Positions 25,118-46,004 are shown, counted from the stretch's first letter. The stretch is 56,808 nucleotides of DNA from Candidatus Brocadia sp. WS118 (GCA_007618135.1 PHFX01000012.1:1-56808); one strand, 5' to 3'. A program made the numbers and translations. The notes: generated from the letters alone by a model not told the origin.

Positions 25118-25140
25118 AATCTTTTCTCTCAGATATATTT

Positions 25141-25310
25141 CGATAAGGGCAAACCCTGAGTGATCAGGGGACGCAAAGTAATAGGGTCTTCTTAATACAG
25201 GGATGTAGTTGAAGAGAAGACAATTATATCCTTGTAGTAAGTCGTAAAAAGACAGCCTTACTGCCGAAGATGTTGAGAAAAAATCTTTGCAGTAAGGCTT
25301 TTTTGTTTTT
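25141..25310 (+). ncRNA. c-di-GMP-I (GEMM) riboswitch with terminator, copy 2
   Basis: Same class as copy 1: GGGCAAACC (25147-25155), a stem capped by the GNRA loop GTGA, GGACGCAAAG, an enlarged variable stem, then AGCCTTACTGCCGAAGATG. AGCCTTACTGC (25254-25264) pairs perfectly with GCAGTAAGGCT (25289-25299), which is followed by T6, forming the terminator. The shared strand predicts antitermination when c-di-GMP binds. The controlled gene is the activator beginning at 25388. Confidence 0.92.
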
Positions 25311-25387: not shown

Positions 25388-26746
25388 ATGAAGACACCAA
25401 CAATTTTAATCGTGGAACGGAATGATACGTTACGGGAAGAACTGAAACGGTTTTTGCTTCAGCAGGGGTATAATAGTATCGAATCGTCTAATAAAACAGA
25501 AGCCCTCAAAATCATTCAATGCAGCGTTATACATCTGGTCATCGTTGGATTGCTTGATAGTGGCCGGGATAGTTTACAGGTGGTACAGGAGATCCGTCGG
25601 TGGAATAGCGTCATTCCCCTTATCCTGATCGCGCACGATAGTACTGAAGAACTTGCCATTGCTGCCTTAAAGGTTGGGATTAGCGATTATTTCAAACAGC
25701 CCGTTTCGTTTGAGGAGTTTGCTGCAAGTCTTCGCAGATGCCTTTTCGGTGCTTCTTTTCACACATCCTCTGAGATACAAGAAACTCCATGTCAGGGCCT
25801 TTTCGACACAGAGAAATTCATCGGTGACTGTTTACCGATGAAAGAGATCAGGACATGCATTGGTAAGGTAGCACAGACGGATAGTAACGTGCTCATCACG
25901 GGGGAAACCGGTACGGGTAAGGAACTGACGGCTGAGCTCATTCACAAGAACAGCTCAAGGAATAAGAACCCTTTTGTCTGCATCAATTGTACGGCCATAC
26001 CTGATAGCCTGCTGGAAAGTGAGCTCTTTGGTTATGAACGGGGGGCATTTACGGGTGCAGATACCCTCAAAGAGGGCAAGCTGAAACAGTCGGAGGGCGG
26101 CACTGTCTTCCTCGATGAAATTGGAGACATGAGCCTTTACCACCAGGCAAAGATTCTGAGGGTTATTGAAAGCAAGGAGATACAACGGTTAGGCGGGAAG
26201 GGGAATATCTCTTTAGACATCAGGATCGTTGCGGCAACCAATAAAAATCTGGAGGAGATGGTATCGGAAGGCACATTCAGGAAGGATCTCTATTACCGGC
26301 TCAATGTGGCGAACATTCATTTGCCGCCGCTGAGACAACGGAGGGAGGATATCGCGGTACTGCTGGACCACTACGTACTCGAAATAAGCAGGCGTTTCGG
26401 ACGTGATATCAAGGGGTTCTCCGGTGATACCCTGGAGTTTTTCCACACCTATGATTGGCCTGGCAACATCCGGGAGATGAAGAATCTTTTAGAGGCAGTT
26501 ATTATCAGTACTCACTCCCAATGGATATTATTACACGACCTGCCGGAAACATTCCGCCATCGGGTCATCGATGCGAGAATGCATTCTGAGGATGAAAAGG
26601 ATCGTTTGCTTGCCGTTCTCTTATCTACAAATTGGAACAAGGCTAAGGCGGCCAGAAAGCTCAACTGGTCCAGGATGACCCTCTACCGGAAGATGGAAAG
26701 GTATCAAATCAGTCAACCGAAGAGTAGTATGGTCACATGTCCATAA
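25388..26746 (+). CDS. Sigma-54 enhancer-binding activator with degenerate receiver domain
   Basis: 452 residues in NtrC order: receiver (4-120), AAA+ domain (~145-385), Fis-type helix-turn-helix (~410-440). The AAA+ part looks active: Walker A GETGTGKE (173-180), GAFTGA loop (220-225) for sigma-54 contact, Walker B GGTVFLDEIGDM (238-249) and the R-finger region LRQRREDI. The receiver cannot be phosphorylated normally: residue 54, the usual aspartate, is Gly (LVIVGLL), and the upstream acidic pair is Glu-Arg. The lysine near 104 remains. It lies on the island directly behind a c-di-GMP riboswitch, so expression level rather than phosphorylation may set its activity. Targets are unknown. Confidence 0.92.
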   Translation: MKTPTILIVERNDTLREELKRFLLQQGYNSIESSNKTEALKIIQCSVIHLVIVGLLDSGRDSLQVVQEIRRWNSVIPLILIAHDSTEELAIAALKVGISDYFKQPVSFEEFAASLRRCLFGASFHTSSEIQETPCQGLFDTEKFIGDCLPMKEIRTCIGKVAQTDSNVLITGETGTGKELTAELIHKNSSRNKNPFVCINCTAIPDSLLESELFGYERGAFTGADTLKEGKLKQSEGGTVFLDEIGDMSLYHQAKILRVIESKEIQRLGGKGNISLDIRIVAATNKNLEEMVSEGTFRKDLYYRLNVANIHLPPLRQRREDIAVLLDHYVLEISRRFGRDIKGFSGDTLEFFHTYDWPGNIREMKNLLEAVIISTHSQWILLHDLPETFRHRVIDARMHSEDEKDRLLAVLLSTNWNKAKAARKLNWSRMTLYRKMERYQISQPKSSMVTCP

Positions 26747-27059: not shown

Positions 27060-27495
27060 TTTTCAGTTTTCTCCAGATATTTGGGAAAATTCAAAACTGG
27101 AGCAAAGCCAGTAAATACAAGGATTACGAGGTGATATTCATTTTAAGTCTGATTTGGCATCGACATTGCTCGTCTCCAAATAACGAGGGAATTCAAAGTT
27201 GTTGCCTCCCCTGTATTCTCCCCATTGAGTGGGGCAACTATTTTGTCCCCCGCTGGCGGGGGGTGGGGGGCGGATGACCGATGAATTAACAAAACCCTTT
27301 GTTCGATTGTACGTTCACGACGAAATCTCAAGAGGGGAAGGAACACCGCCCCTCTCTTCCTGAGAAGGGAGTATAAAAATTCTCTTGGGAGGGGATTCAG
27401 GGGTGGGTAAAAAAGCCATTGGGTTTTACCATGTAAAACCTGATCTATTGGAAACGCATAAAGAAAGTAAACGTCTGAAAAGAAAAGAATCGTTC
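27060..27495. other. Intergenic stretch, no gene supported
   Basis: The rest of the gap before the DUF3467 gene. It has a G-rich segment at 27240-27275 and no start with a convincing ribosome site. A longer in-frame ORF could extend the DUF3467 protein upstream to a TTG at 27385, without support. Confidence 0.4.
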
Positions 27496-27771
27496 ATGGA
27501 CTGTGATAGAGATAAAGGTTTTCAGGAAGGCGAAGAACTAGAAGGACGGTATGCGAATGTCTTCAAGGTTGGGCAAAATGCCTTTGAATTTGTGATCGAC
27601 TTTGGTCAGTCGTATGTTGAAGGGAAGAGGGAAATATTCCATACGAGGATCGTCAGCAGTCCCTTTTATGCAAATGTCCTGTTAAAGACACTGCAGGAGT
27701 CGATAGAACGGTATGAAAAGGTATTCGAGTCAATACCGGAAGAAGATGAGGGCGGAGAAAAATCCTCATAA
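27496..27771 (+). CDS. DUF3467 family protein
   Basis: 91 residues from ATG 27496. The family pattern is clear: EGRYANVFKVGQNAFEFVIDFGQ, HTRIVSSPFYANVLLKTLQESIERYE, followed by an acidic tail. DUF3467 proteins are short, probably cytoplasmic, and of unknown function. It precedes the third riboswitch by about 90 bases. In other genomes the family is scattered, so context rather than homology suggests a link to the downstream set. Confidence 0.75.
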   Translation: MDCDRDKGFQEGEELEGRYANVFKVGQNAFEFVIDFGQSYVEGKREIFHTRIVSSPFYANVLLKTLQESIERYEKVFESIPEEDEGGEKSS

Positions 27772-27861: not shown

Positions 27862-28003
27862 ATCACGATAAGGGCAAACCCTGAGTGATCAGGGGACGCA
27901 AAGGAGAGGATCTTTAACATATTTCCTGCAAAGGCAGGAAAGTATAAAGATGGCCTTACTACCGAAGATGTTTGTGGAAAATCTTTGCAGTAAGGTTTTT
28001 TTG
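27862..28003 (+). ncRNA. c-di-GMP-I (GEMM) riboswitch with terminator, copy 3
   Basis: Aptamer core GGGCAAACC (27872-27880), a GNRA-capped stem (GTGA), GGACGCAAAG, a hairpin TTTCCTGC...GCAGGAAA and a 3' part GGCCTTACTACCGAAGATG. The terminator pairs CCTTACTAC with GCAGTAAGG (one A-C mismatch) and ends in T7. It lies directly upstream of the subtilisin gene and so probably gates the whole 28-40 kb gene set. Confidence 0.9.
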
Positions 28004-28206: not shown

Positions 28207-29517
28207 ATGAAAAGGCATATGATCGTCCGTCTCTACCAGACGCTTTCTGATGACCTAAAGATCCCGGACTGGATCGATTTTATCAATAATAAATCGGTGA
28301 TAAAAGAAGATCTTAACCCTGACATAGATCGTTTGTTTGAAGAGATGGGTTTAAAGTTCTGGTTGACCCGGGAATATAAGCCGGAGGGCGCGCAATGGAA
28401 CGCGGAAGAAATACGTGAAGGATTGAACCGGACCTACCGGATTATTTTACAACAAGATTATGCCCTCCCGAAAAATTTAGTGGAACAGATCAAGCTTATT
28501 CCTTCTGTTGAGGACGTTCGGGAGATTATGATTGCCGAATCGTATCTTCCCTCCCAGCGGTTCCCGAAAGAGGTTTCGTCTGCAATGGTATTGGGGATGC
28601 GGAAGGGGTCAGATCTGATCTATTTGCCTTATGCGAAAGCGATCACGAAAGGGGACCCTGCTATAAAGATCGCCGTGTTGGATACCGGAGTCGACCTGGA
28701 CCACAAGGAATTACAAGGAAAAATCGTTAAACGCGCTGATTTTGTTCATTTAGAAGGTCTGGATACCTCCCGTTTTATCGGGGATGTCATGGGCTATGAC
28801 GATCTCCCTGAAGATGAGGTCGGCCATGGGACCCATGTCTCAGGCATTCTTGTAAGTAAAGGAATCGAAATGGAGGAAGGGGTTTCACCCGGGTGTAGTC
28901 TCATGGCCATTCGGGTGTTGGGCACCATGAAAAGCGGCAATCGTTTTGTTGGTGCAGGGATCGTGGACAATATCAACACTGGGATCAAGTGGGCGGTCGA
29001 TCAGGGGGCCGATATTATTAATATGAGTCTGGGCATTCGGCATACGGGAGGAGGGCTGCCCCATGAAGAGGTGATCCGATATGCCCTGAGTAAAAACGTG
29101 ACGGTGGTTGCGGCCAGCGGCAATGACGGAACATCCGAACGATATTATCCCGGTGCCCTGCCCGGTGTCATTGCCGTGGGGGCTGTGGATGACATCGGAA
29201 AGGTGGCCGGTTTCACGTCGTTTGGAGCCAATATCATGGTGGTCGCTCCGGGTGTTAACATCTACAGTGCACTTGCGAATAATCGTTATGGTCTTGCCTC
29301 CGGAACTTCCCAAGCGTCTCCCTGTGTTGCGGGCGCCGTGGGATTGATGAAATCTTATGCGCTGGAACAGGGAAAAAGACTCACAAATCGAGAAATTTTC
29401 TCGATTTTGAAGAACACCTCCGATCGCGTGGATACCCGCTTACGGAATGAACAGGCAGGCTATGGCCTCATCAACTTGGCAGATGGTCTGAAGTTGCTGA
29501 CTCACATGTTAAATTAA
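28207..29517 (+). CDS. Subtilisin-like S8 serine protease
   Basis: 436 residues from ATG 28207 (AGAGGA about 11 bases upstream); an earlier TTG at 28129 is open but lies in a repeat. The catalytic triad is complete: Asp in AVLDTGVDLDH (~159), His in GHGTHVSGIL (~207), Ser in ASGTSQASPCVAG (~368), with oxyanion Asn in AASGNDG (~306). About 150 residues precede the catalytic domain and include an I9-like segment (RIILQQDYALP...SVEDVREIMIA) that may be an inhibitory propeptide. No signal peptide is visible, so it may act in the cytoplasm or on co-produced proteins. It leads the riboswitch-controlled set and may mature one of them. Confidence 0.93.
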   Translation: MKRHMIVRLYQTLSDDLKIPDWIDFINNKSVIKEDLNPDIDRLFEEMGLKFWLTREYKPEGAQWNAEEIREGLNRTYRIILQQDYALPKNLVEQIKLIPSVEDVREIMIAESYLPSQRFPKEVSSAMVLGMRKGSDLIYLPYAKAITKGDPAIKIAVLDTGVDLDHKELQGKIVKRADFVHLEGLDTSRFIGDVMGYDDLPEDEVGHGTHVSGILVSKGIEMEEGVSPGCSLMAIRVLGTMKSGNRFVGAGIVDNINTGIKWAVDQGADIINMSLGIRHTGGGLPHEEVIRYALSKNVTVVAASGNDGTSERYYPGALPGVIAVGAVDDIGKVAGFTSFGANIMVVAPGVNIYSALANNRYGLASGTSQASPCVAGAVGLMKSYALEQGKRLTNREIFSILKNTSDRVDTRLRNEQAGYGLINLADGLKLLTHMLN

Positions 29518-29536
29518 ATTAAAAAAGGGGGGGAAA

Positions 29537-31453
29537 ATGGCAAACATCGGATCTTTAACAAATGGCGGTTCAGTCACGTTGTCATCAGCGAGAATCAGAA
29601 GGCCTCTCGTCACAACAAGCGGCTTTAGTTCCGATCTGGACGAAACCGTCAAGAGACACCTGGACGAGTTGAATGAGTTGTTGAATAAAAGAATTTTTGA
29701 GGTGGATGATAAAAACAGGGTAACCTTGAAGGTTGATTTCAACAGAAAATCGCAGAATATAGAAATCACAACCCTTCTAAAAAAGTCACTAACTCCTAAA
29801 AGAACGATTCCGGATGCCTGGGATAATGCCAGTCTCCTCGACTTTTTTGATAAGGGGAAGGAAAATCTCAATAAAAGCACTTTATCAGAGTATGTGGACG
29901 GCACTCCGGAACTTTCCATCTTGAAATCGACCTTTTTGGACTACCTTTCTAAAAGTGGCTCCAGTCTCGAGTACAACGTCCAAGCGGTCCTTACCGATTA
30001 TCCGGCGATCACAAACTATTTGGTGGCGGTCGCGTTTTATATCGGAGAACGAAAGGAGTTTCACGGGCTGAAGAACTTCATTGTGAGCCACAGTCAGGGC
30101 ACGAAAAACGTTGCCCGCTACGCAATCGTCAGCGGGGCGCGAACCCTCATTGAAAAGAAACAACTGGAGGTTCCCCATCTTAATAACGACAACAGCGAAA
30201 TTGTGAATAAGATCAAAGCGGCAAAGGTATCACTTTCATCGGCGTCATTTGAAACGGACGTTCAGTCCGTTATTGATGACCAGATCTTCTATAACAAGGA
30301 ATACGCACTGATTGAGGATGCGGAGAAACATTTGGGGAAAATCCCCTCCGAAATCAAGCCGTTGCTCGTTCAGTATATCAAACATTCTCCCGTGCTGGTT
30401 ACAAAACAGAACAACGAGTATTTTCTTCCCCTGTTCATCTCACAAATCAAAGGGGAAATACAAATTGCCGATACGACACAAGCCGACAAAGCAGAATCCG
30501 AAAGAGACTTTGACGTCTCGTTCCTGGAAGACGATAAGTCATCGATTCAGGTGAACAAACTCGCCGTCAAGTGTGCCGCTCAGTTGTACTACAGTATGGT
30601 ATTGGGCGACCAACTGGGCGTGTTCGATATCATGAACTACTTCTCGCACAAATATCTGATTCGGGGAGGAATCCTGATCGAAGATCGCCGTTTGCGAGAG
30701 GATATCCAACAGTATGTCTTTTCCAATAAATTCACCAACCTCAAGACAAAGAAGTTAACCGATCGCACCAGGCCGGCGGAACGACAGATGTTCTACCGAC
30801 AGGCCTTCAATGAGGGAAGCGCAGAGGTGACGGAAGATCTGATCGTTAACCGGGAGTTTTCGCGGCTCTGGAAAGTGCTCATGCTGGAGACGGCAAAATA
30901 TATTGAACGAGCACAGGACAGCCCGAATCCGGAACGGTTCGTCTCCCCGCAAAACATCATGCAGGCCGTGGAAGACCTTCAATACAACCTATCGACTCAT
31001 GCCACGGGAATGGTGAACGTTATCACACCGCTGATCTATGCGGAGATTGAGTTTGTAATCCGGCGCATCCTGAAGCACCCGGAGGTGCTCCGGCAAATCG
31101 TTCCGTCCGGGGGAACCTGGTGGCGGGTCGTTGAGACATTGTATATGGCTATGAAGAATGTACGGCCGAAAGCAACCGTCTTTAATAATAAGGCGAGGCT
31201 GGGCTATGCCATTATCCAATCGATCGCGAATTACACCCCCTCCAAGTTCGAGGAAGACAAGACCTTGCTCGCTTTCATCAGCGATGTGGACGCCTTCATT
31301 ACGACCCAAAGCATCTTACAGGAAGCGCTTACAGACGAGTTGATCCGGGGAGAAAAAGAGGAAGAAGAGGAGGAATCAAATGGGGATCAAACAGAAAAAA
31401 GGGTACCGGTGTCCCCCGGCTCGAAAGCAGAACAAGACGAATGGGATTTTTAA
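29537..31453 (+). CDS. Unrecognised 638-residue protein of the island set
   Basis: The start has a strong AAGGGGGGG ribosome site. No family was recognised. The protein is largely helical in appearance, with no signal peptide or transmembrane segment. The N-terminus is Ser/Thr-Gly rich (residues 1-30). Segments of possible interest: NYFSHKYLIRGGILIEDRRLREDIQQ (~405-430) and VPSGGTWWRVVETLYMAM (~540). The C-terminus ends in an acidic run (GEKEEEEEESNGDQTE) and polar tail. It lies 19 bases after the S8 protease gene and belongs to the same transcript. It could be the protease's substrate or a structural component; neither is shown. Confidence 0.8.
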   Translation: MANIGSLTNGGSVTLSSARIRRPLVTTSGFSSDLDETVKRHLDELNELLNKRIFEVDDKNRVTLKVDFNRKSQNIEITTLLKKSLTPKRTIPDAWDNASLLDFFDKGKENLNKSTLSEYVDGTPELSILKSTFLDYLSKSGSSLEYNVQAVLTDYPAITNYLVAVAFYIGERKEFHGLKNFIVSHSQGTKNVARYAIVSGARTLIEKKQLEVPHLNNDNSEIVNKIKAAKVSLSSASFETDVQSVIDDQIFYNKEYALIEDAEKHLGKIPSEIKPLLVQYIKHSPVLVTKQNNEYFLPLFISQIKGEIQIADTTQADKAESERDFDVSFLEDDKSSIQVNKLAVKCAAQLYYSMVLGDQLGVFDIMNYFSHKYLIRGGILIEDRRLREDIQQYVFSNKFTNLKTKKLTDRTRPAERQMFYRQAFNEGSAEVTEDLIVNREFSRLWKVLMLETAKYIERAQDSPNPERFVSPQNIMQAVEDLQYNLSTHATGMVNVITPLIYAEIEFVIRRILKHPEVLRQIVPSGGTWWRVVETLYMAMKNVRPKATVFNNKARLGYAIIQSIANYTPSKFEEDKTLLAFISDVDAFITTQSILQEALTDELIRGEKEEEEEESNGDQTEKRVPVSPGSKAEQDEWDF

Positions 31454-31724
31454 AACGTAGATGTTGCACATACAACGTCTAGCGGGGCGTTGCCGTGAGG
31501 CTGTGGTGAAAACCCACCCTCACTAACCTCTACACTGAGTGAGAGGAATTTCCCCCCTTCAAGGGGAGATTACGTGTTTAATTTCTCCCCTTCAGGATTG
31601 CAGAACCCACGAGGAGGTGAGGAGGGGATGGGTTTTGATAACGGCGAGTAAAATGGTTGCCTTAGAAACTCATTTACAACAACTTTTGCACGTTCAGTAC
31701 ACTAACTAATGTAGGAGTAAAGCG
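31454..31724. other. Gap within the island set
   Basis: A 270-base gap between two co-oriented genes. It contains the second REP-like copy (31452-31481) and a hairpin-forming CCCCTTCAAGGGG segment (around 31557-31567); no T-run terminator was seen, so read-through is possible. Confidence 0.4.
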
Positions 31725-32756
31725 ATGAATGTGACTACCATTCCAAGCGAAGTGCAGATGAATGATTCTGCCCGTGCACATGCCCGAGAGGTCTTAGGGG
31801 ATTGCGAGTCGTTTAAGTTTCTTCCCCTGGCAGAACAAAAGAGCCTTTATTTTTCACTGATACAAGACTATCTTGACAAAGAGAAAGAGAAGTACGGCCT
31901 TTCCAAACCGATGGCAACCGATTCTGGGAAAGAAATGGGGTACAAGGGATACGATCCCGGATTTGGAGGGGATACGAAAGCCTTTCGTGAGTTGGTCGAT
32001 TCCGTCGATTTCCCACAATTCGTCGCTGACTTATTGAAAGCAGTCTTCGACGCCAATTTAAAGGTGATGAAGCAACAGACTGACAGTTACATCAAGCTAA
32101 TGAAAGAAGCAACGAAATCGTCCGCTGATTTTATCAAAAAGGTGAAGGACGAAGAGTCCTTTATGAAGCTTGCTGAAACAAAAGGAAATCAATACAACGT
32201 CACAGCGGAAAAGAATGCCGATGGAAGCAGCAAACTGGTGTTGACAAATCCGGAGGGAGAGAAAGTTGATACGGAAGACGCACAGGTGAAGGCCCATATC
32301 ATGGATGCGAAGATCCGGATGGCACAGGAACATCGCGCGGCCCTTCGAGAGGTGTTGCTCATGGGCGTGACACGGCTGGTTGTTGAAAAGGGTGAAATCG
32401 AAGCGGGTGTGGAATTCAGCGTTAAGGCAAGCCGCGAAAGTAAGGCACATCACGAAGATCAGAACATCAATGTGACAAATTTGGAGATGGAATATGGGGG
32501 GGGGCTTGCCGGTTTGTTTGGCGGTCCTAGCGGCAGTCTCTCCGTATCCAATACGAACATCCAGGTCAATACATCAGATAAGAAGGCAACGGATGATTTG
32601 TCAGCCACTTTGAAAGGCAAGGTCAATATCAAGTTCAAAACAGACTATTTCAAACTGGATAATTTTGCCAATATGTATGCCGATGGAGGTGTGGCGGCAC
32701 TGAAACAAGGCACGCCGGTACAAGGGCAACCGGCCGCGCCTGTGCCGGCTCGATAG
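31725..32756 (+). CDS. Unrecognised 343-residue protein of the island set
   Basis: Start ATG 31725 with GTAGGAG upstream. No family name can be given. The middle (residues ~70-160) is helical and rich in Lys/Glu; residues ~200-235 (QEHRAALREVLLMGVTRLVVEKGEIEAGVEF) form a helix then strands. Residues ~255-320 are Gly/Ser/Asn-rich and beta-like (GGGLAGLFGGPSG, SNTNIQVNTSD), and the tail is Pro/Ala-rich (PVQGQPAAPVPAR). No signal peptide. The helix-plus-beta layout could suit an assembly or scaffold protein, which is guesswork. It lies 15 bases before the next gene. Confidence 0.8.
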   Translation: MNVTTIPSEVQMNDSARAHAREVLGDCESFKFLPLAEQKSLYFSLIQDYLDKEKEKYGLSKPMATDSGKEMGYKGYDPGFGGDTKAFRELVDSVDFPQFVADLLKAVFDANLKVMKQQTDSYIKLMKEATKSSADFIKKVKDEESFMKLAETKGNQYNVTAEKNADGSSKLVLTNPEGEKVDTEDAQVKAHIMDAKIRMAQEHRAALREVLLMGVTRLVVEKGEIEAGVEFSVKASRESKAHHEDQNINVTNLEMEYGGGLAGLFGGPSGSLSVSNTNIQVNTSDKKATDDLSATLKGKVNIKFKTDYFKLDNFANMYADGGVAALKQGTPVQGQPAAPVPAR

Positions 32757-32768
32757 GAGACGATCGCT

Positions 32769-34865
32769 ATGGCATTAGCGATTCTGGAACTGGTTGCACT
32801 GGAAGAGGCCAATGTACGATTTAAGATTGATACAGGAACCAACAGGTACTATCAACTCAAGATTGGAAGGGCGATAAGGCGTAAAAACGGGATTGACTGG
32901 GTTGACGATCTCTATTTTTCCTCCCCGCTGAGCATCAATCCAGCGGGGGGGGAGCTGCTCCGTTCAGTCAGTGAGATCTCAATACCGCTCAAACAGTTTG
33001 ATCGAGGGAGGGCGTATGTCCAATTGTTTAGTTTTAAGACACGTGAGAAAACATCGCCTGCCTTTTCACGGGTCATCGAAATCCCAATGGGGGCATCTGC
33101 CCTTCTGGCCGATCCTCCTGCCGATTTTGCCTTGCCCTTTTCAAGGAGAAGCCCCATGACAACAATCGCATCGTTTCATGCCCCACGGACTATCCCCTGC
33201 CGATCGGAGGGAGGGACCTATTCGCAGGCGGCCTCTTTGGACGATATCCTCGGCACACTCCTGAAGGTCGCTGTCCCCGTGGTCCAAAATTTATTAGGGG
33301 GAGCACAAAACAATCCTCCGGCGGGTGCACCAGCCGGTACGACAGCACCGGCTGGGGAGACGGCCCTGCCTGCTCTTCTGGCGCGATGGCTCACTTCCAT
33401 TGTTGGCGGTCTCGGAGCGGGAGGTGCAACAATGAGTCAGCCGCAATCGATAGGGGTTCCAATCATTCACAGCAACCGTTTCATCAGGCCAGAGGCCGAG
33501 TTTTCACAACCATTTTTTTGGCAGGCCCTGTTAGGCGCGGCCATCGGCCCACTGATTCAGGCACTCCCGCAACTGGCGAATGCAGCCATCCAAAAGAGAA
33601 TACAGATGAAGCAGGCGGATAATAAGCTCATCACCGACATTCTTTCCACTGTCAACCAAAGGAGGCTATTGGAACAATTGCTGGAAGCACAGCGGCAAGT
33701 CCCTTCCGGCGGCTCGTCTGAGAATGCTGCCAATCTCACGCCGCTCATTCAATTGTTGCAACAGATGCCTGCCGCATCTCAGCAACCGGCTGCTGAAGCA
33801 ACGCCCCCGCCTGTCGCCGTTTCGACATCGCAAAGCAGGCCCAGTGCCGGCTATGCTTACACCTTCAGCAACAAGGCCGTTTTATCGTTTGTAACGGCCG
33901 ATCCCGTTCGCTGGAATGGTACAGACCGACTCCTGTTCTCAAAAAATCAGGGGGTGCAATTGAAAATCCGGTTCACCGTCGGAGAACCTGCTCCCAAAAC
34001 ACCACTGCCCAAGGCTATTTTAAAGGTCGTTTTTAAGAACAATGCCGATCAGTCGGTTTTATACGAAAAACAATTCCAGCAAAAGAATCTAGAGCCAAAC
34101 AGTGTGCTGCCGTTCTCGTTCTCTCCAGAGGAGTTGGCCCCTCTACCCCTGAACAGACCGATTGCCGTATTTGCGGAAATCCGCTGGTTAAGTCCAAAAA
34201 CCAGCCGCGAATATAGAGCGCTGGGCTCTTCGGAAATGGTCATGGTTGACAAGCATTTCCTGAAAGAAAAGGGGAATGCCCTCCGTTCAGAACAGGAGCT
34301 GACCGATATGAATCGATTCAGGGTCTTCTGGAACAAGGTGTGGGAAGCGCCTTTACTCAATAGAGCAGGAACGGACCAAGGTGAAAAGAAATACCTCTGG
34401 GAGGCCAATCTAAATCTAAAGTATTTTGTGTACCTTTCCATCGACCAGGAATCGAATGGATTGATGGAAACAAAAATCTTACGCGAACAACCGGATGAAG
34501 AAAGCCTTTCAGAAAAGATTGCCGGGCGAATGAAGTCCGGAATTGAACTGAGCCTCTCTGAATTGAATCAGCTGATTCCCTTATGGAATGGAGCACCGGC
34601 TCTTAATCGCGATCAATTGGATGCGTTTAAAACGGATCTTTTTAGGAGAGACAACGCGGGTGAATTCCAATATCACGTTCGGCTCAAAGGGAAAGCCGGC
34701 CAGCGGGGAATGGTCTGGGTTGTGCCGATCTTCAAGCTCTTTGAATTCATATTGGGTACTGTTCAAAAGGCTGATGACGCGGGTCAGGTCATTTCAGTAT
34801 CAGAGGAAACCGTTCGATTCCCCTTACCGATAGCGGCGCGTGTCATCGGGTTGAAATCCACGTAG
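32769..34865 (+). CDS. Unrecognised 698-residue protein with amphipathic helical segments
   Basis: Start ATG 32769 follows AGGAGACG. Residues 1-~110 are a beta-rich domain (LKIGRAIRRKNGIDWVDDLYF, ISIPLKQFDRGRAYVQLFSF). Residues ~155-300 hold several hydrophobic or amphipathic helices (ILGTLLKVAVPVVQNLLGG, LPALLARWLTSIVGGLGAGG, WQALLGAAIGPLIQALPQL) separated by Pro/Ala/Gly linkers; residues ~340-365 are Pro/Gln/Ala-rich. Residues ~370-490 again look beta-rich, and the rest is mixed. No signal peptide. The helices could insert in or coat a membrane, but this is only a possibility. It is co-transcribed with its neighbours. Confidence 0.8.
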   Translation: MALAILELVALEEANVRFKIDTGTNRYYQLKIGRAIRRKNGIDWVDDLYFSSPLSINPAGGELLRSVSEISIPLKQFDRGRAYVQLFSFKTREKTSPAFSRVIEIPMGASALLADPPADFALPFSRRSPMTTIASFHAPRTIPCRSEGGTYSQAASLDDILGTLLKVAVPVVQNLLGGAQNNPPAGAPAGTTAPAGETALPALLARWLTSIVGGLGAGGATMSQPQSIGVPIIHSNRFIRPEAEFSQPFFWQALLGAAIGPLIQALPQLANAAIQKRIQMKQADNKLITDILSTVNQRRLLEQLLEAQRQVPSGGSSENAANLTPLIQLLQQMPAASQQPAAEATPPPVAVSTSQSRPSAGYAYTFSNKAVLSFVTADPVRWNGTDRLLFSKNQGVQLKIRFTVGEPAPKTPLPKAILKVVFKNNADQSVLYEKQFQQKNLEPNSVLPFSFSPEELAPLPLNRPIAVFAEIRWLSPKTSREYRALGSSEMVMVDKHFLKEKGNALRSEQELTDMNRFRVFWNKVWEAPLLNRAGTDQGEKKYLWEANLNLKYFVYLSIDQESNGLMETKILREQPDEESLSEKIAGRMKSGIELSLSELNQLIPLWNGAPALNRDQLDAFKTDLFRRDNAGEFQYHVRLKGKAGQRGMVWVVPIFKLFEFILGTVQKADDAGQVISVSEETVRFPLPIAARVIGLKST

Positions 34866-34875
34866 GAGGGAGAAG

Positions 34876-35049
34876 ATGATGGGAAAATCGTTGTCAGAAG
34901 AGGAACCCGTAGAAGAGAATGCGTCTGGCCAGGATTCGAAACCCGAATATGCTTTCGAAGGGTTTGAAATCGAATTCTCAGAAAAGATCATGCTGACTCC
35001 CCTCGCTACCATACAACGGGGAAAACAGAAAAGTGGACCTATGCCATGA
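34876..35049 (+). CDS. Small 57-residue protein of the island set
   Basis: A short ORF with an excellent ribosome site (GGAGGGAGAAG) just before tandem ATG codons (34876, 34879). It is acidic at the N-terminus (SEEEPVEEN) and ends KSGPMP. Its stop overlaps the next start (ATGA at 35046-35049), showing translational coupling. No family was recognised. Confidence 0.6.
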   Translation: MMGKSLSEEEPVEENASGQDSKPEYAFEGFEIEFSEKIMLTPLATIQRGKQKSGPMP

Positions 35050-35309
35050 TCGACGAAGCATTCCTGACATTTCGACAAGTCATCGAGAAACTGTTCACTT
35101 TTAAGGGAGAAATCACCGACGAGGAGATGGGGGTTCGTTCGTTCATTTATGCATGCGAAATTGATTCACCTGTCGAACTCGATATTGTGCGAGATGAGGC
35201 AGGCCGATTGCAGATCGGGACCACGCCACCACTCTACTCTGTCAAGACCACCTTTCTCCCTTCGTTTCACAGATTAGTGGTTACAGCACAAAGATCAGGA
35301 GATTTTTAA
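35046..35309 (+). CDS. Small 87-residue protein of the island set
   Basis: Starts within the stop of the 57-residue gene and ends overlapping the next start (TAATG at 35307-35311), so three small genes are coupled in series. The protein is alpha/beta in appearance: a helical start (FRQVIEKLFTF) and then strands (VELDIVRDEAGRLQIGTTPP). No family was recognised. Being conserved in such a tight chain suggests it acts with the Trypco2-like protein. Confidence 0.7.
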   Translation: MIDEAFLTFRQVIEKLFTFKGEITDEEMGVRSFIYACEIDSPVELDIVRDEAGRLQIGTTPPLYSVKTTFLPSFHRLVVTAQRSGDF

Positions 35310-36094
35310 TGGCCGCTGAAAACACCGCATGGCAATTAGAAGAGTTTGTCGATTCGCTGGTTGTCGAATTGGACAAGACGCGGGAGACCTTAGCTGTAAA
35401 GGCCATTAACAAGCCGCTCAGCTATACCGTGAAAGAGATGGCGCTCGATTTAAATGCCTTTCCCTCCTATGACGGTGATCAAGTAAAGTTTGTCACGGCT
35501 CAGCCAGGACAACAGGGGGCATCCAAGGTCACGATTCAATTGGGCTCGATCACCGATCAACAGGTGCGAGCAACGACAAAAACGCCCGGGGCAAAGGGTG
35601 ATGTAACGATTCAGGAGACCGATGTAGACAAGGCCACGAAAAAAAAGTTGCGAAAGCTTGGCGTGAATACCCTTGACGATCTCAAACAGATCGAAAAGAA
35701 AGAGGTCGATTTGCAGAAGGCATCGGATGATACCATTGACTACCGAAAGCTGGCCAACCTGATTCAAAAGTCGAAGCGCAACCAAAACCCTCCTCAGATT
35801 CATCGGGTCAGCCTCTCGATGGATCAGGACAAGAAACCGTCTCTGGTAATCGAAGGGAAAAACCTGGCCATTGATCCGAATTTTTCTCCTGTTGCCGTCG
35901 TGAATCAGACCCTGTCGGAGGTTCTATCGAGTCATCCTAATGAGATCAAGATTCAACTGAATCCGGCCCATCATTTTTTAGAGAGCAACGAACTCATTGT
36001 AACGTGTGACCCTTTTGCAGTTGTCAAAGTCAACGTGAAAGGAAAAGGTCTAAAACCAGATGAAGAAGAAAACGAAAAAAAAGATCTCGTTTGA
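35309..36094 (+). CDS. Trypco2-like domain protein, 261 residues
   Basis: Residues ~5-85 have the layout of the trypsin-co-occurring domain 2 (Trypco2): an N-terminal helix (QLEEFVDSLVVELDKTRETLA), strand VKEMALDLNAF, then VKFVTAQPGQQGASKVTIQLG. That domain accompanies trypsin-like proteases and NTPases in proposed bacterial conflict systems; here a subtilisin is in the same gene set. The rest (~120-261) has a helical segment with many lysines and a beta-rich C-terminal part (LVIEGKNLAID, FAVVKVNVKGKG). The gene starts in the previous stop codon and ends 35 bases inside the following gene. Trypco2 assignment is by eye. Confidence 0.6.
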   Translation: MAAENTAWQLEEFVDSLVVELDKTRETLAVKAINKPLSYTVKEMALDLNAFPSYDGDQVKFVTAQPGQQGASKVTIQLGSITDQQVRATTKTPGAKGDVTIQETDVDKATKKKLRKLGVNTLDDLKQIEKKEVDLQKASDDTIDYRKLANLIQKSKRNQNPPQIHRVSLSMDQDKKPSLVIEGKNLAIDPNFSPVAVVNQTLSEVLSSHPNEIKIQLNPAHHFLESNELIVTCDPFAVVKVNVKGKGLKPDEEENEKKDLV

Positions 36095-38312
36095 CGAGAT
36101 CATAAAAACCTATTACGGCCGCCCCGACAAGGAGCGTTCAACCCTTGCGATAAAAATGGAAGAGCGGCTTTTCCATGATTACGGCAAACCGCAAGTCCCA
36201 AAAGGCAAGAATGGGAAGCGGTTATCCCCGGTTGTTCTCTCGTTGAGTTATGATCAAGGGGAAACGCTTCTGCAATACAAGAGGGACAAACCGTTTGAGG
36301 AGTATATCGTTCCGCCGAGGACGGAAGAACGGTTTGAGGAATATGTAGTTCCCTGTTTGATGGCAGATCACGAATTGGAAGAATATGTTGTGAGGAAGGA
36401 TGCGGTTTCCGGAGAGGGTCATGTTGATACAGCGGTGGAAGTCATCCCTGCCGAAAAGGTGAGCGCCTCGCAGGAATATGCAGTCGATCTTCTCTATCCC
36501 CTCAAAGAAGGCAAGCCGGCTCGTTCGGTAATGCCATCAATCGAACCGTCTCTTGGCGAAGAAAAACCACAGAAACAAGCGTCCCTTACTGTTTTTTCAC
36601 CCCCGCCTTCCCAAACTAATCAGGCTAAGACCTTAGACGATGATTTTGTTGCCGATATGAAGTCGATCTTATCGGGTAAGAAGGTTTTCGATCCGGCAAC
36701 AAAGAAGGCGATAGGGAAAGACCAGATTGGGCCATCGGTTCCACGACTTGGTGAAGAAGCCAGTGCCGAGCGTCCTGTAGCCGCTGCGAATAATGATCAG
36801 GCCATCTTTGACAAAATTGCTCAGAGCATGCAATATGCGAATGCCTATAATCTCGGCACGGTTGAATTGGAAAACCGCTTTGCCGATTTTGACCGAATCG
36901 CTGATTTGGAGAAAAGGGCAGCAGAGCAGAAGAAAGGCAAGGAGGTCAAAAGGCCGGAGGAGGCAGTATCTTCCAATATTCAGGTGGAGACCAAGGAATT
37001 TCTCCAGGATCTGGACGCAATGCGGAAACAAGGGTTCGAGATGAGATTACCTTCTTCTTTTTCCTCGGCGTTTGCTCTTCATACATTGGAAGGGGTAACA
37101 GAGTATTATAGCCGTCCGTTTTTTGATACCGGTGAACATGTATTGGGAGGAGAAGATCTTTACGTTGATCAACTACGAGTTGGGAAAGCCCCAGGTGTAC
37201 TTTTTTCATACGGACAGATTATTGCAATGGGGGGGGACCTCTACGGAACTCTTGATGAAATGATGAATGCAGATGTTGCCGAATTAAAAAAACTGAAATC
37301 GTTTATCGAGCGGAATACAGCGTACTACAAGGGGAACAAGACTGATCCATCAAAGTCGGTCTCTAACAAACAGTGGGACGATGCAACGAACGGCCGTTAT
37401 CTCAAACTTGCCGAAGAAAACTATTCGCATTTTTCCCCGGATATTTTACTGAAAACTACAAGTGGAGGGGCAAGAAATACCAATCAGTCCGAATGGGAAG
37501 ATCATCATGCCAGGGCAATTAAAGCTGCACAGGAGATGATGGCAGACCCACAAAGTGCGAATCGGCCGGCTTTTCTGGAACGGCCTTTGATCATCAACGC
37601 CTTCGGCGACCATTTCCTGACAGATGCCTTTTCTTCAGGGCACCTCCTTAATAAGGAGGGAGTCATCAGACGTTTCAAGGACCATTTCTTTGATGGAAAC
37701 TCACTTAAGCCGGAGGGAAAAAAGTTTTTTGCTACAGTCGCAAAATTGGCATTCAAAGGGAACATCGCAAAGAAATTTAGCCGGTTAGAGACTTACAAAC
37801 CCCTTGAGGGGTGGTGGAATATCATCAATTGGAATCCGAATATAGACAGCGTAAGCAGATTTGAAGAACTGCTCATAGGGGTTGCCGAACAACGGCCCGA
37901 TTCCATTGGCAACATCGCTGCAAAGTCATTACATGACCATCTCAACAAAAATGGAATTAAAGTGACAAACGATGCGGGTGATGGGCCCTGGATACTAAAA
38001 GGTGACGGCTTTCTTGACCCAACTACACTGGAAATCCTGCGAAAAGCTGTTCGGCAATCGATTGATAACCTCCATGATCCATCGATTCAAGTCAGGAGTG
38101 TTCCTTTTGATTTGCATCCTTATTTTTCGAAGGTCTGGAAATATGTTCCGAAGCTTACGAAAACGTCTGAGCATGCGTTCAGGCAACTGGTAGAGGAGTA
38201 TACCACTCCTACTTCAGAAGTTTTGCAAAAGGCTGCGGCGCAGGTGATTCATGACCAAGTAGATTTACTCATTAAGAAGCTCATAGAAGAGAAGGCACTT
38301 AAGTATGCGTGA
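36060..38312 (+). CDS. 750-residue protein with zinc phospholipase C / P1-nuclease-like motif
   Basis: Start ATG 36060 lies inside the previous gene (35-base overlap). Residues 1-~240 are low-complexity and include three spaced copies of an EEY[IV]V motif (80, 93, 107) and a related QEYAV at 138. Residues ~247-282 hold a segment (NAYNLGTVELENRFADFDRI) that looks like a linker or docking element. Residues ~335-640 form the main domain with GDLYG (392-396), YSHFSP (455-460), WEDHHARA (479-486) and DHFLTDAFSSGHL (517-529). The last is HxxxDxxxxxH, the metal-binding pattern of zinc-dependent phospholipase C and S1/P1 nucleases. Activity on lipid or nucleic acid is plausible but unproven. No signal peptide. 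Confidence 0.75.
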   Translation: MKKKTKKKISFDEIIKTYYGRPDKERSTLAIKMEERLFHDYGKPQVPKGKNGKRLSPVVLSLSYDQGETLLQYKRDKPFEEYIVPPRTEERFEEYVVPCLMADHELEEYVVRKDAVSGEGHVDTAVEVIPAEKVSASQEYAVDLLYPLKEGKPARSVMPSIEPSLGEEKPQKQASLTVFSPPPSQTNQAKTLDDDFVADMKSILSGKKVFDPATKKAIGKDQIGPSVPRLGEEASAERPVAAANNDQAIFDKIAQSMQYANAYNLGTVELENRFADFDRIADLEKRAAEQKKGKEVKRPEEAVSSNIQVETKEFLQDLDAMRKQGFEMRLPSSFSSAFALHTLEGVTEYYSRPFFDTGEHVLGGEDLYVDQLRVGKAPGVLFSYGQIIAMGGDLYGTLDEMMNADVAELKKLKSFIERNTAYYKGNKTDPSKSVSNKQWDDATNGRYLKLAEENYSHFSPDILLKTTSGGARNTNQSEWEDHHARAIKAAQEMMADPQSANRPAFLERPLIINAFGDHFLTDAFSSGHLLNKEGVIRRFKDHFFDGNSLKPEGKKFFATVAKLAFKGNIAKKFSRLETYKPLEGWWNIINWNPNIDSVSRFEELLIGVAEQRPDSIGNIAAKSLHDHLNKNGIKVTNDAGDGPWILKGDGFLDPTTLEILRKAVRQSIDNLHDPSIQVRSVPFDLHPYFSKVWKYVPKLTKTSEHAFRQLVEEYTTPTSEVLQKAAAQVIHDQVDLLIKKLIEEKALKYA

Positions 38313-38402
38313 TGAATGCATCGGTGCACACCGGAGGGGATAGTCTCTTTCACCTGAGGTGTTGCGCAAGCAGAGTGTAAACAACACCCGAAGGAGGAAA
38401 TT

Positions 38403-40160
38403 ATGGAAAATCGATTTATGGAAATGGATCAGTATCTGAAACGGATTTGTGGGAAAAAAGGCCGTCGGGGAGCGGTGAGGTCCGGTCATTCTGCCGTTGA
38501 ATTGGCCGACACGGGTGAGGCTGTGCCGGGTGCAAGGAATATTGTTACCCAGCAATCAGGTTATGCGTTTGCTCAAAACCCTGTGGCCATTGCAGGTCTG
38601 GGGGTGGCCGTCTTCAATACGGGACGGACCATCGCCACGAGCGGGAGTTTTTCTACGCAATCGACGCCCGCCAGTTATATCCACCAGAATACGCCTGCCG
38701 GCTCAAAGTTTCGGCGTCGCACCATCGAGTTCACCATCACGGCACACCATCCCCGATATGGAATCGGGACTCAAACATTCTGGTTTAAGCTGTCGTTTGA
38801 ATTTAATGGAAACGATATCAGAGACGCGAGTATTAATCCCCTGATCGATAAATCGAGTTCCATGATATCGTCCACCTTTTCCATTAAATTTGAACCTACC
38901 TCTTACAGTCTAAACTCGGATCCTGTCGCCATCATTCGCTACAAGATCAGCGGAGAATGGGATCCGGTCGGCACTGGCCATGTGTCCTTTGAGGGCAATT
39001 TCGATCTGAAAGCCGACGGAGCAGTGACCTATATTATCAATTCAGAAAAAAATTGGGTTCAAAATGGACAATTTCATCATGACGCGATCAGTGAGCCCCA
39101 ATCTCTTGCCTATTCTCACAGTTACCCGGAAGAGGAATTCCAACAAATTATCAATCAGAGTGTCACGGTGCCGCTTAATCAGAACCAAAAGGATGCCCTA
39201 CTCCGTTTTGTTTCTGACATCGGCGGTGAGCGGTTCAGGAAATCGATGCTTTTAAGGCTTTTAAACCAAGGCAGCTATGATGCCGTGCCTGCGGAGCTAA
39301 AGAAGTGGACCAAAGCTCGTCGTAACGGAAACTTAGTGGATTTGCCGGAGCTGGTCAGTAAAAGAAAGGCCGAGGCGGAACTGTTCCAGAAGCCTGGGAC
39401 CTCCGCGGCACAGAGCCTGCTATTCCTTTCTACGGCCTATTCTTATCGGTATGAGAGCCCAAGCCGCGTGGTCGCCCATCAGTTGGATTACTCTTATGCG
39501 ATGAATCCCCTGGTCATCGCCGGGGTGACAGTATCTGATGCCATTCAAATCGGTTTGGGGGCCATTGCGGTGGTACAAGCACAGGTCTCGGCATCGCAAG
39601 GCTCTTTCACCTTGTCTTATGACAAGGTACAACGGCTTTTAACCTCTGAAGCGCGGGCCGCCATGCCGGGTTCGCAGTCCTCCAAGAAAAGTTATTCGCG
39701 ACGACTGCTTTACTTAGGTATCGGCGCGGTCAATGCGGCCGAAGCCGATGTAATCATAGAGTGGGAAGGGAATCCATACGGTGAAATCGGGACCCCCGTT
39801 ATCCGGAGAAACCTAGGAACGTCCACCGAATGGTCAAAATCCTCTGCCAACATTACCATAACAAAAGTGGACCGCATTCCATTGCCTAATACGGATCCCC
39901 GTGTATGGCCGATTGTCTATACTTATGACGGCACGTACGATCCGTATGGAAATGGTTACTTCGAGTTTAGCGGGGAGTTTGAAATCAATGCGTTTGGCGG
40001 CATGAAGTTCAACCGGCATGAAGTGGTGTCTCGTTCCCTTGCGGATTGGGCCATCGGAGGCACACCAGAGGACAAGGTGCAAAAGGGGGCAGATAATATT
40101 GTTTCCGTTCCTCCCATTCCTCAGGATCAGATCAATTATCTCAAAACGCGATTGCCCTAA
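38403..40160 (+). CDS. 585-residue protein: duplicated beta domain around a GH24 lysozyme-like segment
   Basis: ATG 38403 follows GAAGGAGG. Residues ~52-215 and ~362-537 are two divergent copies of one domain: each opens with Y-A-x-N-P-x-x-I-A-G and ends with a Y/W-D-P-x-G-x-G-x-x-x-F-x-G-x-F-x-I/L block. Between them, residues ~243-331 match the C-terminal half of phage GH24 lysozymes (VPLNQNQKDALLRFV, FRKSMLLRLLNQGSYDAV, LPELVSKRKAEAELF). The N-terminal half with the catalytic Glu (ExG...YxD...T) is not present, so it is probably a binding or structural module rather than an enzyme. No signal peptide. It is the last gene of the set. Confidence 0.8.
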   Translation: MENRFMEMDQYLKRICGKKGRRGAVRSGHSAVELADTGEAVPGARNIVTQQSGYAFAQNPVAIAGLGVAVFNTGRTIATSGSFSTQSTPASYIHQNTPAGSKFRRRTIEFTITAHHPRYGIGTQTFWFKLSFEFNGNDIRDASINPLIDKSSSMISSTFSIKFEPTSYSLNSDPVAIIRYKISGEWDPVGTGHVSFEGNFDLKADGAVTYIINSEKNWVQNGQFHHDAISEPQSLAYSHSYPEEEFQQIINQSVTVPLNQNQKDALLRFVSDIGGERFRKSMLLRLLNQGSYDAVPAELKKWTKARRNGNLVDLPELVSKRKAEAELFQKPGTSAAQSLLFLSTAYSYRYESPSRVVAHQLDYSYAMNPLVIAGVTVSDAIQIGLGAIAVVQAQVSASQGSFTLSYDKVQRLLTSEARAAMPGSQSSKKSYSRRLLYLGIGAVNAAEADVIIEWEGNPYGEIGTPVIRRNLGTSTEWSKSSANITITKVDRIPLPNTDPRVWPIVYTYDGTYDPYGNGYFEFSGEFEINAFGGMKFNRHEVVSRSLADWAIGGTPEDKVQKGADNIVSVPPIPQDQINYLKTRLP

Positions 40161-43952: not shown

Positions 43953-44930
43953 ATGAAAACAGCGCTGTCTTTATCTGTCGGCTTCTTACTAGCCGTATAT
44001 CTGTTATTTTCTGTTCATCATACCCTTGCAGGCGAGTGGGGTCTCGGAGAACAGGCAGAGGAGTTGGATGCATGTGATAGTGTAATCCTTCATTTTGACG
44101 GGAAGACGTGGAATTATATGTATCACGGGTTCGGGATGTGGCTCAATGACATCTATGGTTTTGATTCCAATGATATCTTTGCGGTGGGTGAGCAGGGGGT
44201 TATTCTCCACTACGATGGCCAGTCGTGGATAAAACAAAAAAGCCCCACCAAGCATAGATTAAACAGGATTTGGGGCAGCAGCCGCAAAGACATCTATGTT
44301 TGCGGTGACTTTGGAACCATGCTTCATTTCAACGGTATGGAATGGGAAAAATATGATACTTCCATAGTTGATTGGTGCAGGGGTATCTGGGGTTTCGATG
44401 AAAAACATATCTTGGTTACCGGCAATTTGGGCAAGGTATTCCGGTACAATGGGGAAACATGGCTGGAGCGAACGATTGGTACCGTGGATTCCATGTATGA
44501 CATCAGCGGTAGCAGTATGAAAAATGTATATGCAGTGGGTGAATATGGCACCGTTGTTTACTATGATGGCAAGAACCTGAAAAAGCTTAAACCGTTTACC
44601 AGCAAAACACTCACCAGTGTATGGACGCTAGACCAGAAAAATGTATACGTTGCCGGTGCGGACGGCTTTATTTCCCATTATGATGGTTCAAAATGGACGC
44701 GACAGATGAGCGGAACGTCCCACTGGCTGAGAAAAATTTGGGGTATCGATGCCCAAAACATCTTTGTCGTAGGGGATCATGCAACGATTCTTTACTACGA
44801 TGGAAAAACCTGGAAGACCCATAAAAGTGGCACGAATTACTCTTTTTCTGGCATATGGGGAAACAGAAGGGATAATGTATATGTTGTTGGGGTTAATCCT
44901 GCGGATCTCTACGATCACTTGACGCAGTAA
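43953..44930 (+). CDS. Secreted beta-propeller-like repeat protein
   Basis: 325 residues with a signal peptide (MKTALSLSVGFLLAVYLLFSVHHTLA). The rest is about seven repeats of roughly 40-42 residues, each with the core L/I-x-x-I-W/Y-G-x-x-x-x-(D/N)-I/V-Y/F-V/A-x-G-(D/E)-x-G-x-(V/I)-L/V-H/Y-Y/F-(D/N)-G. This is the pattern of a beta-propeller of the BNR/YCF48-like sort, usually a protein- or ligand-binding surface. Start ATG 43953 with AAAGGAAAAC upstream. Exported; partner unknown. Confidence 0.8.
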   Translation: MKTALSLSVGFLLAVYLLFSVHHTLAGEWGLGEQAEELDACDSVILHFDGKTWNYMYHGFGMWLNDIYGFDSNDIFAVGEQGVILHYDGQSWIKQKSPTKHRLNRIWGSSRKDIYVCGDFGTMLHFNGMEWEKYDTSIVDWCRGIWGFDEKHILVTGNLGKVFRYNGETWLERTIGTVDSMYDISGSSMKNVYAVGEYGTVVYYDGKNLKKLKPFTSKTLTSVWTLDQKNVYVAGADGFISHYDGSKWTRQMSGTSHWLRKIWGIDAQNIFVVGDHATILYYDGKTWKTHKSGTNYSFSGIWGNRRDNVYVVGVNPADLYDHLTQ

Positions 44931-44984
44931 GAAATGGTATTGAGACACTTTTAACACAAGTATGATTTGGGAAGGAGAATTACT

Positions 44985-46004
44985 ATGCAACTTGGAATGA
45001 TCGGTCTTGGAAGGATGGGTGGAAATATGGTGCGGCGGTTGATGCGCACCGGTCATGAGGTTATCGTTTATTCTGCTACGGCAAAGACGAGGGAAACCTT
45101 TGCGAAGGAGACCGGGGCTTTCGCAGCCGCGTCGATTAAAGAGCTTGTGGCCAGGCTTAAACCACCCCGGGTGGTTTGGCTGATGGTGCCAGCAGCCGCA
45201 GTTGATGCGACACTGAAGGAGGTTGTGAGTCTGGTGCAAAAAGGAGATATTCTTGTCGATGGCGGAAATTCCCACTATATTGACGACATCCGCCGTGCCA
45301 AAGAACTTGCGCCGCAGGGAATCCATTACGTGGACTGCGGAACAAGCGGAGGCATCTGGGGATTGGAACGCGGGTATTGTCTCATGATTGGCGGTCCACA
45401 AGAGGCCGTCCGGTATCTGGATCCGGTTTTCAAATCCCTCGCCCCCGGGCGGGGACCGGTTCCCAAAACACCGGGGCGGGAAAAAACCGGCGGCACGGCC
45501 GAGGAGGGATATCTCCACTGTGGGCCTGCCGGCGGGGGACATTTTGTCAAAATGGTTCACAATGGAATTGAGTACGGCCTTATGGCAGCCTATGCAGAAG
45601 GACTCAATATCCTGCGGCATGCCAACGTGGGAAAGAAGGAGCATGCGATTGACGCGGAAACAACCCCTCTGCGCCATCCTGAGCATTATCAGTATGATTT
45701 TAACCTGGCCGATATTACGGAACTGTGGCGACGGGGAAGCGTGATTGCCTCGTGGTTGCTTGATCTCTGCGCCATGGAGTTTGCCGGAGATCAGGATTTG
45801 TCCAAATTCGCCGGTAGTGTAGCGGATTCGGGGGAGGGGCGATGGACGATCTCCGCTGCCATTGAAGAAGGGTCGCCGGCTCCGGTGCTGAGCGCTGCGC
45901 TTTATCAGAGGTTCAGTTCCCGTGGTGAGGATGACTTTGCGCGAAAGGTGCTCTCCGCCATGCGCTTCGGCTTCGGAGGTCACGTGGAAAAATCTGAGAA
46001 ATAA
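44985..46004 (+). CDS. gnd: 6-phosphogluconate dehydrogenase, decarboxylating (short form)
   Basis: 339 residues from ATG 44985 (GGAAGGAG just upstream; an earlier in-frame start at 44967 is less likely). The Rossmann motif [13 protein letters not shown] is at the N-terminus, then [17 protein letters not shown], the substrate motif [19 protein letters not shown], and the catalytic [21 protein letters not shown]. The length fits the short GndA/YqeC type, which is often NAD-linked. It makes ribulose-5-phosphate, which also feeds kdsD. Confidence 0.95.

Follow-up and report, generated by a model that had tools for sequence, protein, structure and literature searches.

Nine co-oriented genes on the plus strand of a 56,808-nucleotide (nt) stretch of DNA from Candidatus Brocadia sp. 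WS118 (GCA_007618135.1 PHFX01000012.1:1-56808; here called the window) occupy positions 28207 to 40160 behind a c-di-GMP-I riboswitch, a sensor of cyclic diguanylate (c-di-GMP). We propose, with a probability of roughly 45%, that they constitute one horizontally spreading cassette for a multiprotein assembly with exchangeable cargo that acts on cell envelopes. The cassette has a fixed core, made up of an S8 subtilase and the proteins p638, p343, p698, p87, and p261, which is nearly all-or-none in its occurrence and keeps a fixed order. The slots behind the core hold unrelated enzymes with common short terminal tags (FDxLxxxYYG, NRFxxLD, and the C-terminal p57). This combination of a fixed core and swappable tagged enzymes suggests an undescribed device for protein delivery or lysis. 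A first-pass annotation, made from the sequence alone, had described such a gene set behind the riboswitch and knew of no named system with its layout; gene calls and Rfam confirmed the arrangement, and no match to a named system was found.

A fixed core in conserved order

Searches of plasmids with p343 by tblastn retrieved only Tolypothrix with its close kin (three records) and Burkholderia pyrrocinia. In both, the neighbors of p343 are relatives of window genes, including S8, p638, p87, and p261; the S8 protein of the Tolypothrix cassette is 49% identical to that of the window, and the Burkholderia locus additionally encodes a DUF3467 protein and a sigma-54 activator. A search with an alignment of three p343 relatives identified 79 loci in 84,980 species genomes. 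Across the 83 loci examined, p343 and p638 are each present at 82, S8 and p261 each at 75, and p87 at 74, and the core genes that are absent are mostly those at contig or locus ends.

The genes occur in two main orders. Type I, which is the order of the window (S8-p638-p343-p698-p57-p87-p261-cargo), recurs at about 34 loci from Cyanobacteriota, Bacteroidota, Actinomycetota, Acidobacteriota, Chloroflexota, and Pseudomonadota. Type II (amidase-p343-p87-p261-S8-p638-B350-p343-p343-p638 short-p343) contains four p343 paralogues and a second, short p638 paralogue; it is commonest in Pseudomonadota and is also found in Acidobacteriota, Chloroflexota, and one cyanobacterium. Four alphaproteobacterial loci (L039, L040, L041, and L083) have the type I order with unrecognized open reading frames (ORFs) of up to 792 amino acids in place of p698.

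Searches in the reverse direction, with p261 alone, found matches in 3 of 299 genomes of the order of Chitinophaga, in 5 of 300 genomes of the order of Burkholderia, and in 3 of 291 genomes of a cyanobacterium's phylum, one of these with weak fragments only. Seven strong matches, one of which (L106) is probably from the same organism as L043, were examined together with 20 kb of surrounding sequence; all seven have p343 and S8 alongside, and six have the whole core in order. The seventh, locus L105 (G1277:C16:1-19999), from the cyanobacterial sample, has recognizable S8, p343, and p261 genes with unrecognized genes between them and is a diverged third form of the cassette. Among 72,556 plasmid records, 4 contain p261, and these are the 4 that contain p343; p261 is single copy in 5 of 5 genomes. 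The core is therefore close to all-or-none, and roughly 1 to 2% of genomes in the three groups sampled carry it. The view of the first-pass annotation that these genes belong together is thus borne out by their conserved order, which recurs with S8 in six phyla, and by their nearly all-or-none occurrence; the core families did not prove to be widespread in isolation.

No relatives of p638 or p343 were detected in 59 kin genomes (genus and family) or in 392 genomes of the window's own phylum. Likewise, p343 has no relative among 50,697 phage records, and neither p638 nor p343 has one in viral contigs. In a phylogenetic tree, the p343 protein of the window falls in a 99/98-supported clade of 14 rows and five named phyla, namely Bacteroidota, Actinomycetota, Pseudomonadota, Chloroflexota, and Acidobacteriota, and p343 identity reaches 73% across phyla. 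Horizontal spread of the cassette between phyla is the simplest reading of this pattern.

Searches of the nine genes against Pfam, NCBIfam, PHROGs, and PADLOC recognized only the S8 protein and a Phage_lysozyme piece in p585 (E 2.5e-17), and the other core families have no usable match in these libraries or in the PDB. The S8 gene (28207-29517) encodes a subtilase, as evidenced by its PF00082 match (E 2.3e-45) and the D/H/S triad motifs VLDTG, GHGTHV, and GTSQASP; it has an extra N-terminal domain and no signal peptide. Its best NCBIfam model is the mycosin of type VII secretion systems, but at 163 bits it falls below the cutoff of 279, and the nine genes include no WXG100, EccC, or other ESX component. 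It also scores against the PatA model. The claim that none of the proteins has a signal peptide agrees with our results, as no hydrophobic N terminus occurs in any of the nine.

The next gene, p638 (29537-31453), encodes an all-helical protein according to its AlphaFold2 model (predicted local distance difference test [pLDDT] score of 74), for which fold searches of the PDB gave no significant match. The most conserved core gene is p343 (31725-32756). Its product consists of N-terminal helices followed by two long amphipathic strands that flank a variable Gly/Ser/Asn loop; in a profile of 55 relatives, beta-amphipathic moments are higher in segments 217-240 and 287-309 than anywhere else in the protein, and the loop that separates the two varies in length. 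The model (pLDDT 68) is confident for the helices and falls under 50 for residues 235-289. Proteins that form rings or barrels and have long hairpins, including a phage upper-tail protein, binary-toxin pores, FliF, aerolysin, and lysenin, make up many of the top Foldseek rows, but none is significant; fold searches of p343 covered the PDB and BFVD, and its best E is 3.4e-3. On this pattern we take p343 to be a likely oligomeric ring or barrel; the model is weak. Matches of p343 relatives to DUF6683 and Focal_AT (best E 8e-5 and 1.5e-3, respectively) were set aside as weak.

The product of p698 (32769-34865), a core gene of type I found at 34 loci, has an apolar middle rich in Ala, Gly, and Leu between better conserved ends and no match in profile searches. 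A small core gene, p87 (35046-35309), is supported by its presence at 74 loci and by an alignment of its family, and p261 (35309-36094) by its presence at 75 loci and by weak profile matches in relatives. The p261 protein combines a weakly Trypco2-like N-terminal domain, a middle resembling a helix-hairpin-helix, and an IPT/TIG-like C-terminal domain. The Trypco2 label of the first-pass annotation finds weak support in relatives, 5 of 33 of which reach E<0.1 against PF19631 (best E 0.0098), but not in the window protein, which has no match. PDB sequence searches with p750, p343, p638, p698, and p261 returned nothing meaningful. The genes of three adjacent pairs overlap (p57/p87, p87/p261, and p261/p750). 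In type II cassettes, the B350 gene (L005:20374-21426 and 41 further loci) has a weak Trp_DMAT match (best E 5.6e-4) and may encode an aromatic-prenyltransferase-like protein.

Exchangeable cargo and shared tags

The genes behind p261 vary by clade yet begin alike. In the window, p750 (36060-38312) has the N-terminal tag SFDEIIKTYYG, of the FDxLxxxYYG type, as well as an internal ENRFADFD behind a low-complexity stretch, while p585 (38403-40160) starts with MENRFMEMD, of the NRFxxLD type; cyanobacterial cargo starts with sequences like NRLLALEKEL. The YYG tag is present in 11 of 81 cargo genes, compared with 0 of 629 core and 0 of 255 other ORFs. For the pattern NR[FLM]xx[LMIFY][DEN], 28 of 81 cargo genes have a match within their first 60 residues, and the same 629 core and 255 other ORFs have none; shuffled N termini average 0.07 matches. 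These counts were made after the motif had been seen and in loci that are related and so not independent. Both N-terminal tags are accordingly absent from the core proteins. Cargo with the NR pattern comes from cyanobacteria, Bacteroidota, Actinomycetota, and Pseudomonadota as well as from the window.

The tags are followed by domains resembling zinc phospholipase C (Zn-PLC), M15 domains, C92/NlpC-like domains, or GH24 domains. More widely, accessory genes borne by cassettes also encode GH73, amidase, Peptidase C70, protein-arginine deiminase (PAD), Ntox11, and Tae4 domains. The effector-type character suspected in the first-pass annotation is thus evident in the contents of the variable slots. 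Its naming of individual enzymes held in part. For p750, the Zn-PLC/P1-like assignment is a putative one, based on an H-x3-D-x5-H metal motif (GDHFLTDAFSSGH) that, together with HF and GD motifs, is conserved in relatives; there is no PF00882 or PF02265 match (Pfam, E up to 1). A scan of genome contigs with p750 alone gave no match, probably because its enzyme part varies. A Rhizobium plasmid protein (L006:14800-16410) has the Zn-PLC-like domain of p750 and lies beside a vWA protein, with no cassette core genes nearby. The broken lysozyme fold described for p585 is real in that protein, which has only the GH24 C-lobe (PF00959, residues 229-324) and lacks the catalytic N-lobe with its Glu and TxGYG region; it is a trait of one subtype, as L036, L037, L020, and other relatives have the full GH24 region. 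The p585 protein also contains an internal duplication with apolar segments.

A third tag is p57 itself (34876-35049). It contains FEGFEIEFSEKIMLTPL and conforms to the consensus hxGxxVxFxxKVxLxPVxL. In Bacteroidota, Acidobacteriota, Chloroflexota, and others, as in the window, the pattern is free-standing; in Mycobacterium, Agromyces, Microbacterium, and an acidobacterium, it forms the C terminus of p698 (within 14 residues of the p698 end at L014 and L032-L034); and in cyanobacteria, it forms the C terminus of large variable proteins at the same cassette position, again no more than 14 residues from the end. Because p57 is fused to the C termini of p698 or cargo, gene-fusion evidence indicates that p57, p698, and cargo meet. 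The two tiny coupled proteins noted earlier do overlap, but they differ in kind, p57 being a proposed docking tag and p87 a conserved core gene.

A proposed mechanism and its competitors

We propose that the tags dock the cargo on the core, as the fusions and the recurring pattern suggest. Judging from their composition, p343 would oligomerize via its amphipathic hairpin into a ring or barrel that gives the assembly passage through a membrane, the S8 protease may mature or release parts, and the cargo, comprising peptidoglycan hydrolases and phospholipase-like and toxin-like domains, would breach or poison the envelope. The target could be the envelope of a neighbor, after the device exits the producer by lysis, or that of the producer itself. 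The long amphipathic hairpin of p343 on a soluble domain is reminiscent of beta-hairpin ring and pore proteins, such as binary-toxin pores, aerolysin, and the FliF/SpoIIIAG collars, but the resemblance is one of pattern, with no significant structural or sequence match. More tentatively, the cassette may represent an unnamed class of protein-delivery device, unrelated to phage tails, known multipart toxins, and secretion systems, in which a p343 ring or barrel is assembled with p638, p698, p261, and p87 and with enzymes docked by three kinds of tag, p57 being free-standing or C-terminal. We found no paper naming the cassette in the open-access literature; it may have been described elsewhere.

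If this proposal is correct, the cassette embodies a principle of delivery with no ancestry in phage tails or known toxin complexes, and c-di-GMP signaling is tied to a delivery device in at least one organism. Its loading tags would be testable, and searches for them would be a route to new lytic and toxin-like enzymes; carriers include the easily grown genera Chitinophaga, Lysobacter, and Sphingomonas. Even if delivery is the wrong interpretation, at least six phyla share a conserved nine-gene unit whose core families the main libraries lack, and that gap deserves to be filled.

Several points weigh against a delivery device. No secretion signal, receptor-binding gene, or immunity gene is recognized in the cassette, and most of the cargo attacks peptidoglycan, which would equally suit self-lysis. 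Also, the ring or pore ascribed to p343 is a guess from pattern, because no fold match is significant and the hairpin lies largely at pLDDT under 50. Finally, the tag motifs, counted post hoc as they were, are absent from some cargo.

An intracellular conflict or abortive-infection system would account for some of the same features. Here, the S8 protease would respond to a trigger by cutting core proteins, and the infected cell would die from the membrane-active p343 ring and the lytic cargo that are released. The lack of signal peptides and the sparse, horizontally spread distribution are consistent with this idea, as is the position of the protease beside a weakly Trypco2-like p261, since Trypco2 was named for protease-linked conflict systems (PMC7159879). 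The VMAP/MoxR-vWA ternary conflict systems with Trypco1/Trypco2 share that pairing, but the protease of the cassette is S8 rather than trypsin or caspase, and the cassette has no VMAP gene. According to Pfam, there is no vWA or MoxR gene among the nine, and no sensor NTPase, TIR, or CARF part either; the cassette is not a Trypco/vWA-MoxR system (PMC7159879). Furthermore, PADLOC matches are limited to subtilase/IetS models for S8 and a marginal one for p261, peptidoglycan enzymes work outside the cytoplasm, control by c-di-GMP is unlike phage sensing, and the locus adjoins housekeeping genes (YidC and MnmE). We consider a conflict system unlikely.

Rather doubtful, too, is a self-directed device with which the producer, in a developmental or biofilm-linked process, opens or remodels its wall to release cells, matrix, or contents. 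Control by c-di-GMP at two points, the prevalence of wall enzymes among the cargo, and the lack of visible immunity genes would suit such a role. However, other cells are the typical target of such cargo or accessory domains as Ntox11, Tae4, the C70 protease, and PAD, cargo is exchanged rapidly, as in an arms race, and the cassette occurs across very different wall types. Polymorphic toxin systems similarly join a constant sorting part to exchangeable toxin domains, including Ntox11 and Tae4, but they use Rhs, LXG, or WXG100 carriers, whereas the cassette uses short tags with a multigene core in cis and has no immunity genes that we could see.

Extracellular contractile injection systems (eCIS), such as PVC and Afp, offer another parallel to the delivery device that we favor. 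They are chromosomal cassettes that are sparse in environmental bacteria (PMC8213781, PMC11495950), and their variable effectors carry N-terminal loading signals (PMC11495950); the cassette, too, is chromosomal and sparse and pairs a constant device with exchangeable, N-terminally tagged effectors. This likeness, the frequency of lysozyme in tails, and the phage collar proteins among the nonsignificant p343 fold rows would suit a cassette that is what remains of a phage-tail-derived particle (eCIS or tailocin), or is related to one, but has diverged beyond recognition. We regard that as improbable. The cassette has no recognized sheath, tube, baseplate, fiber, or loading ATPase, and its core families are unrelated to those of eCIS by profile search. 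Neither Pfam nor PHROGs revealed a sheath, tube, or baseplate of eCIS, type VI secretion systems, or tailocins among the window proteins and 23 core members, or a credible match to these parts or to a fiber in the core families, and no AAA loading ATPase is encoded between 28207 and 40160, the sole nearby AAA protein being the sigma-54 activator. A sheath-domain row for p343 (E 0.37) is at noise level, and the phage records and viral contigs searched hold none of its relatives. The statement in the first-pass annotation that phage tail, sheath, and baseplate genes are missing thus withstood Pfam and PHROGs searches, which gave no contractile or phage assembly; fold searches returned no significant match to one.

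Very improbable is a pathway for ribosomally synthesized and posttranslationally modified peptides, with S8 as the leader protease, the tiny p57 as the precursor, and the prenyltransferase-like B350 of type II as a modifying part: S8 does score against PatA and B350 weakly against Trp_DMAT, but the p57 motif is fused to the C termini of large proteins, there is no cyclodehydratase, and B350 and p57 belong to different cassette types.

c-di-GMP wiring and neighboring genes

Two c-di-GMP-I aptamers on the plus strand precede the cassette and its neighbor, both above the Rfam RF01051 gathering score of 35 bits. One (27863-27966; 56.0 bits) ends 240 nt ahead of the S8 start codon, and the other (25138-25268; 57.8 bits) lies upstream of the sigma-54 activator gene. 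The 3' end of the former overlaps a terminator-like hairpin on the same strand (27952-27997; -16 kcal/mol, z -3.1), which is followed by a U run to 28002 and is plausibly a terminator-type expression platform. Its aptamer score and this hairpin together identify the element as a c-di-GMP-I riboswitch. A further copy in the window, of the GGC type, is located at 6776-6874. The 5.0-Mb genome has 36 such riboswitches above the cutoff, an unusually heavy use of this class in one genome, and none was found at 8 other cassette loci. The riboswitch is therefore local wiring, and we rejected it as a part of the system; the description "riboswitch-gated" applies to this organism and not to the cassette at large.

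The activator (25388-26746, plus strand) consists of a response regulator, a sigma-54 AAA domain, and a Fis-type helix-turn-helix (Pfam Response_reg 1.8e-12, Sigma54_activat 3.9e-69, and HTH_8 2.8e-13). It is likely a regulator of the cassette; a similar activator adjoins cassettes at L005, L022, L023, L035, L068, and L074. Between the activator and the cassette is the accessory gene for a DUF3467 protein (27496-27771, plus strand; PF11950, E 7.2e-12), which accompanies five cassette loci (the window, L005, L022, L068, and L074). In some relatives, then, both genes are part of the set. Open-access papers on the cassette, on DUF6683, or on the role of DUF3467 here were not found. Acting through the two riboswitches and the sigma-54 activator, c-di-GMP probably times production in this organism.

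Between the activator and DUF3467 genes, TGGCATcgacaTTGCT (27155-27170, plus strand) has one mismatch to a sigma-54 -24/-12 site; matches to this promoter pattern in the window are not above chance. Downstream of the cassette, two sizeable ORFs without a Pfam match (325 amino acids, plus strand; 449 amino acids, minus strand) overlap on opposite strands at 43953-46037. Some 6 kb beyond the cassette, the minus strand encodes a PilJ-PAS-GAF-GGDEF diguanylate cyclase (46329-48395), a possible local source of c-di-GMP.

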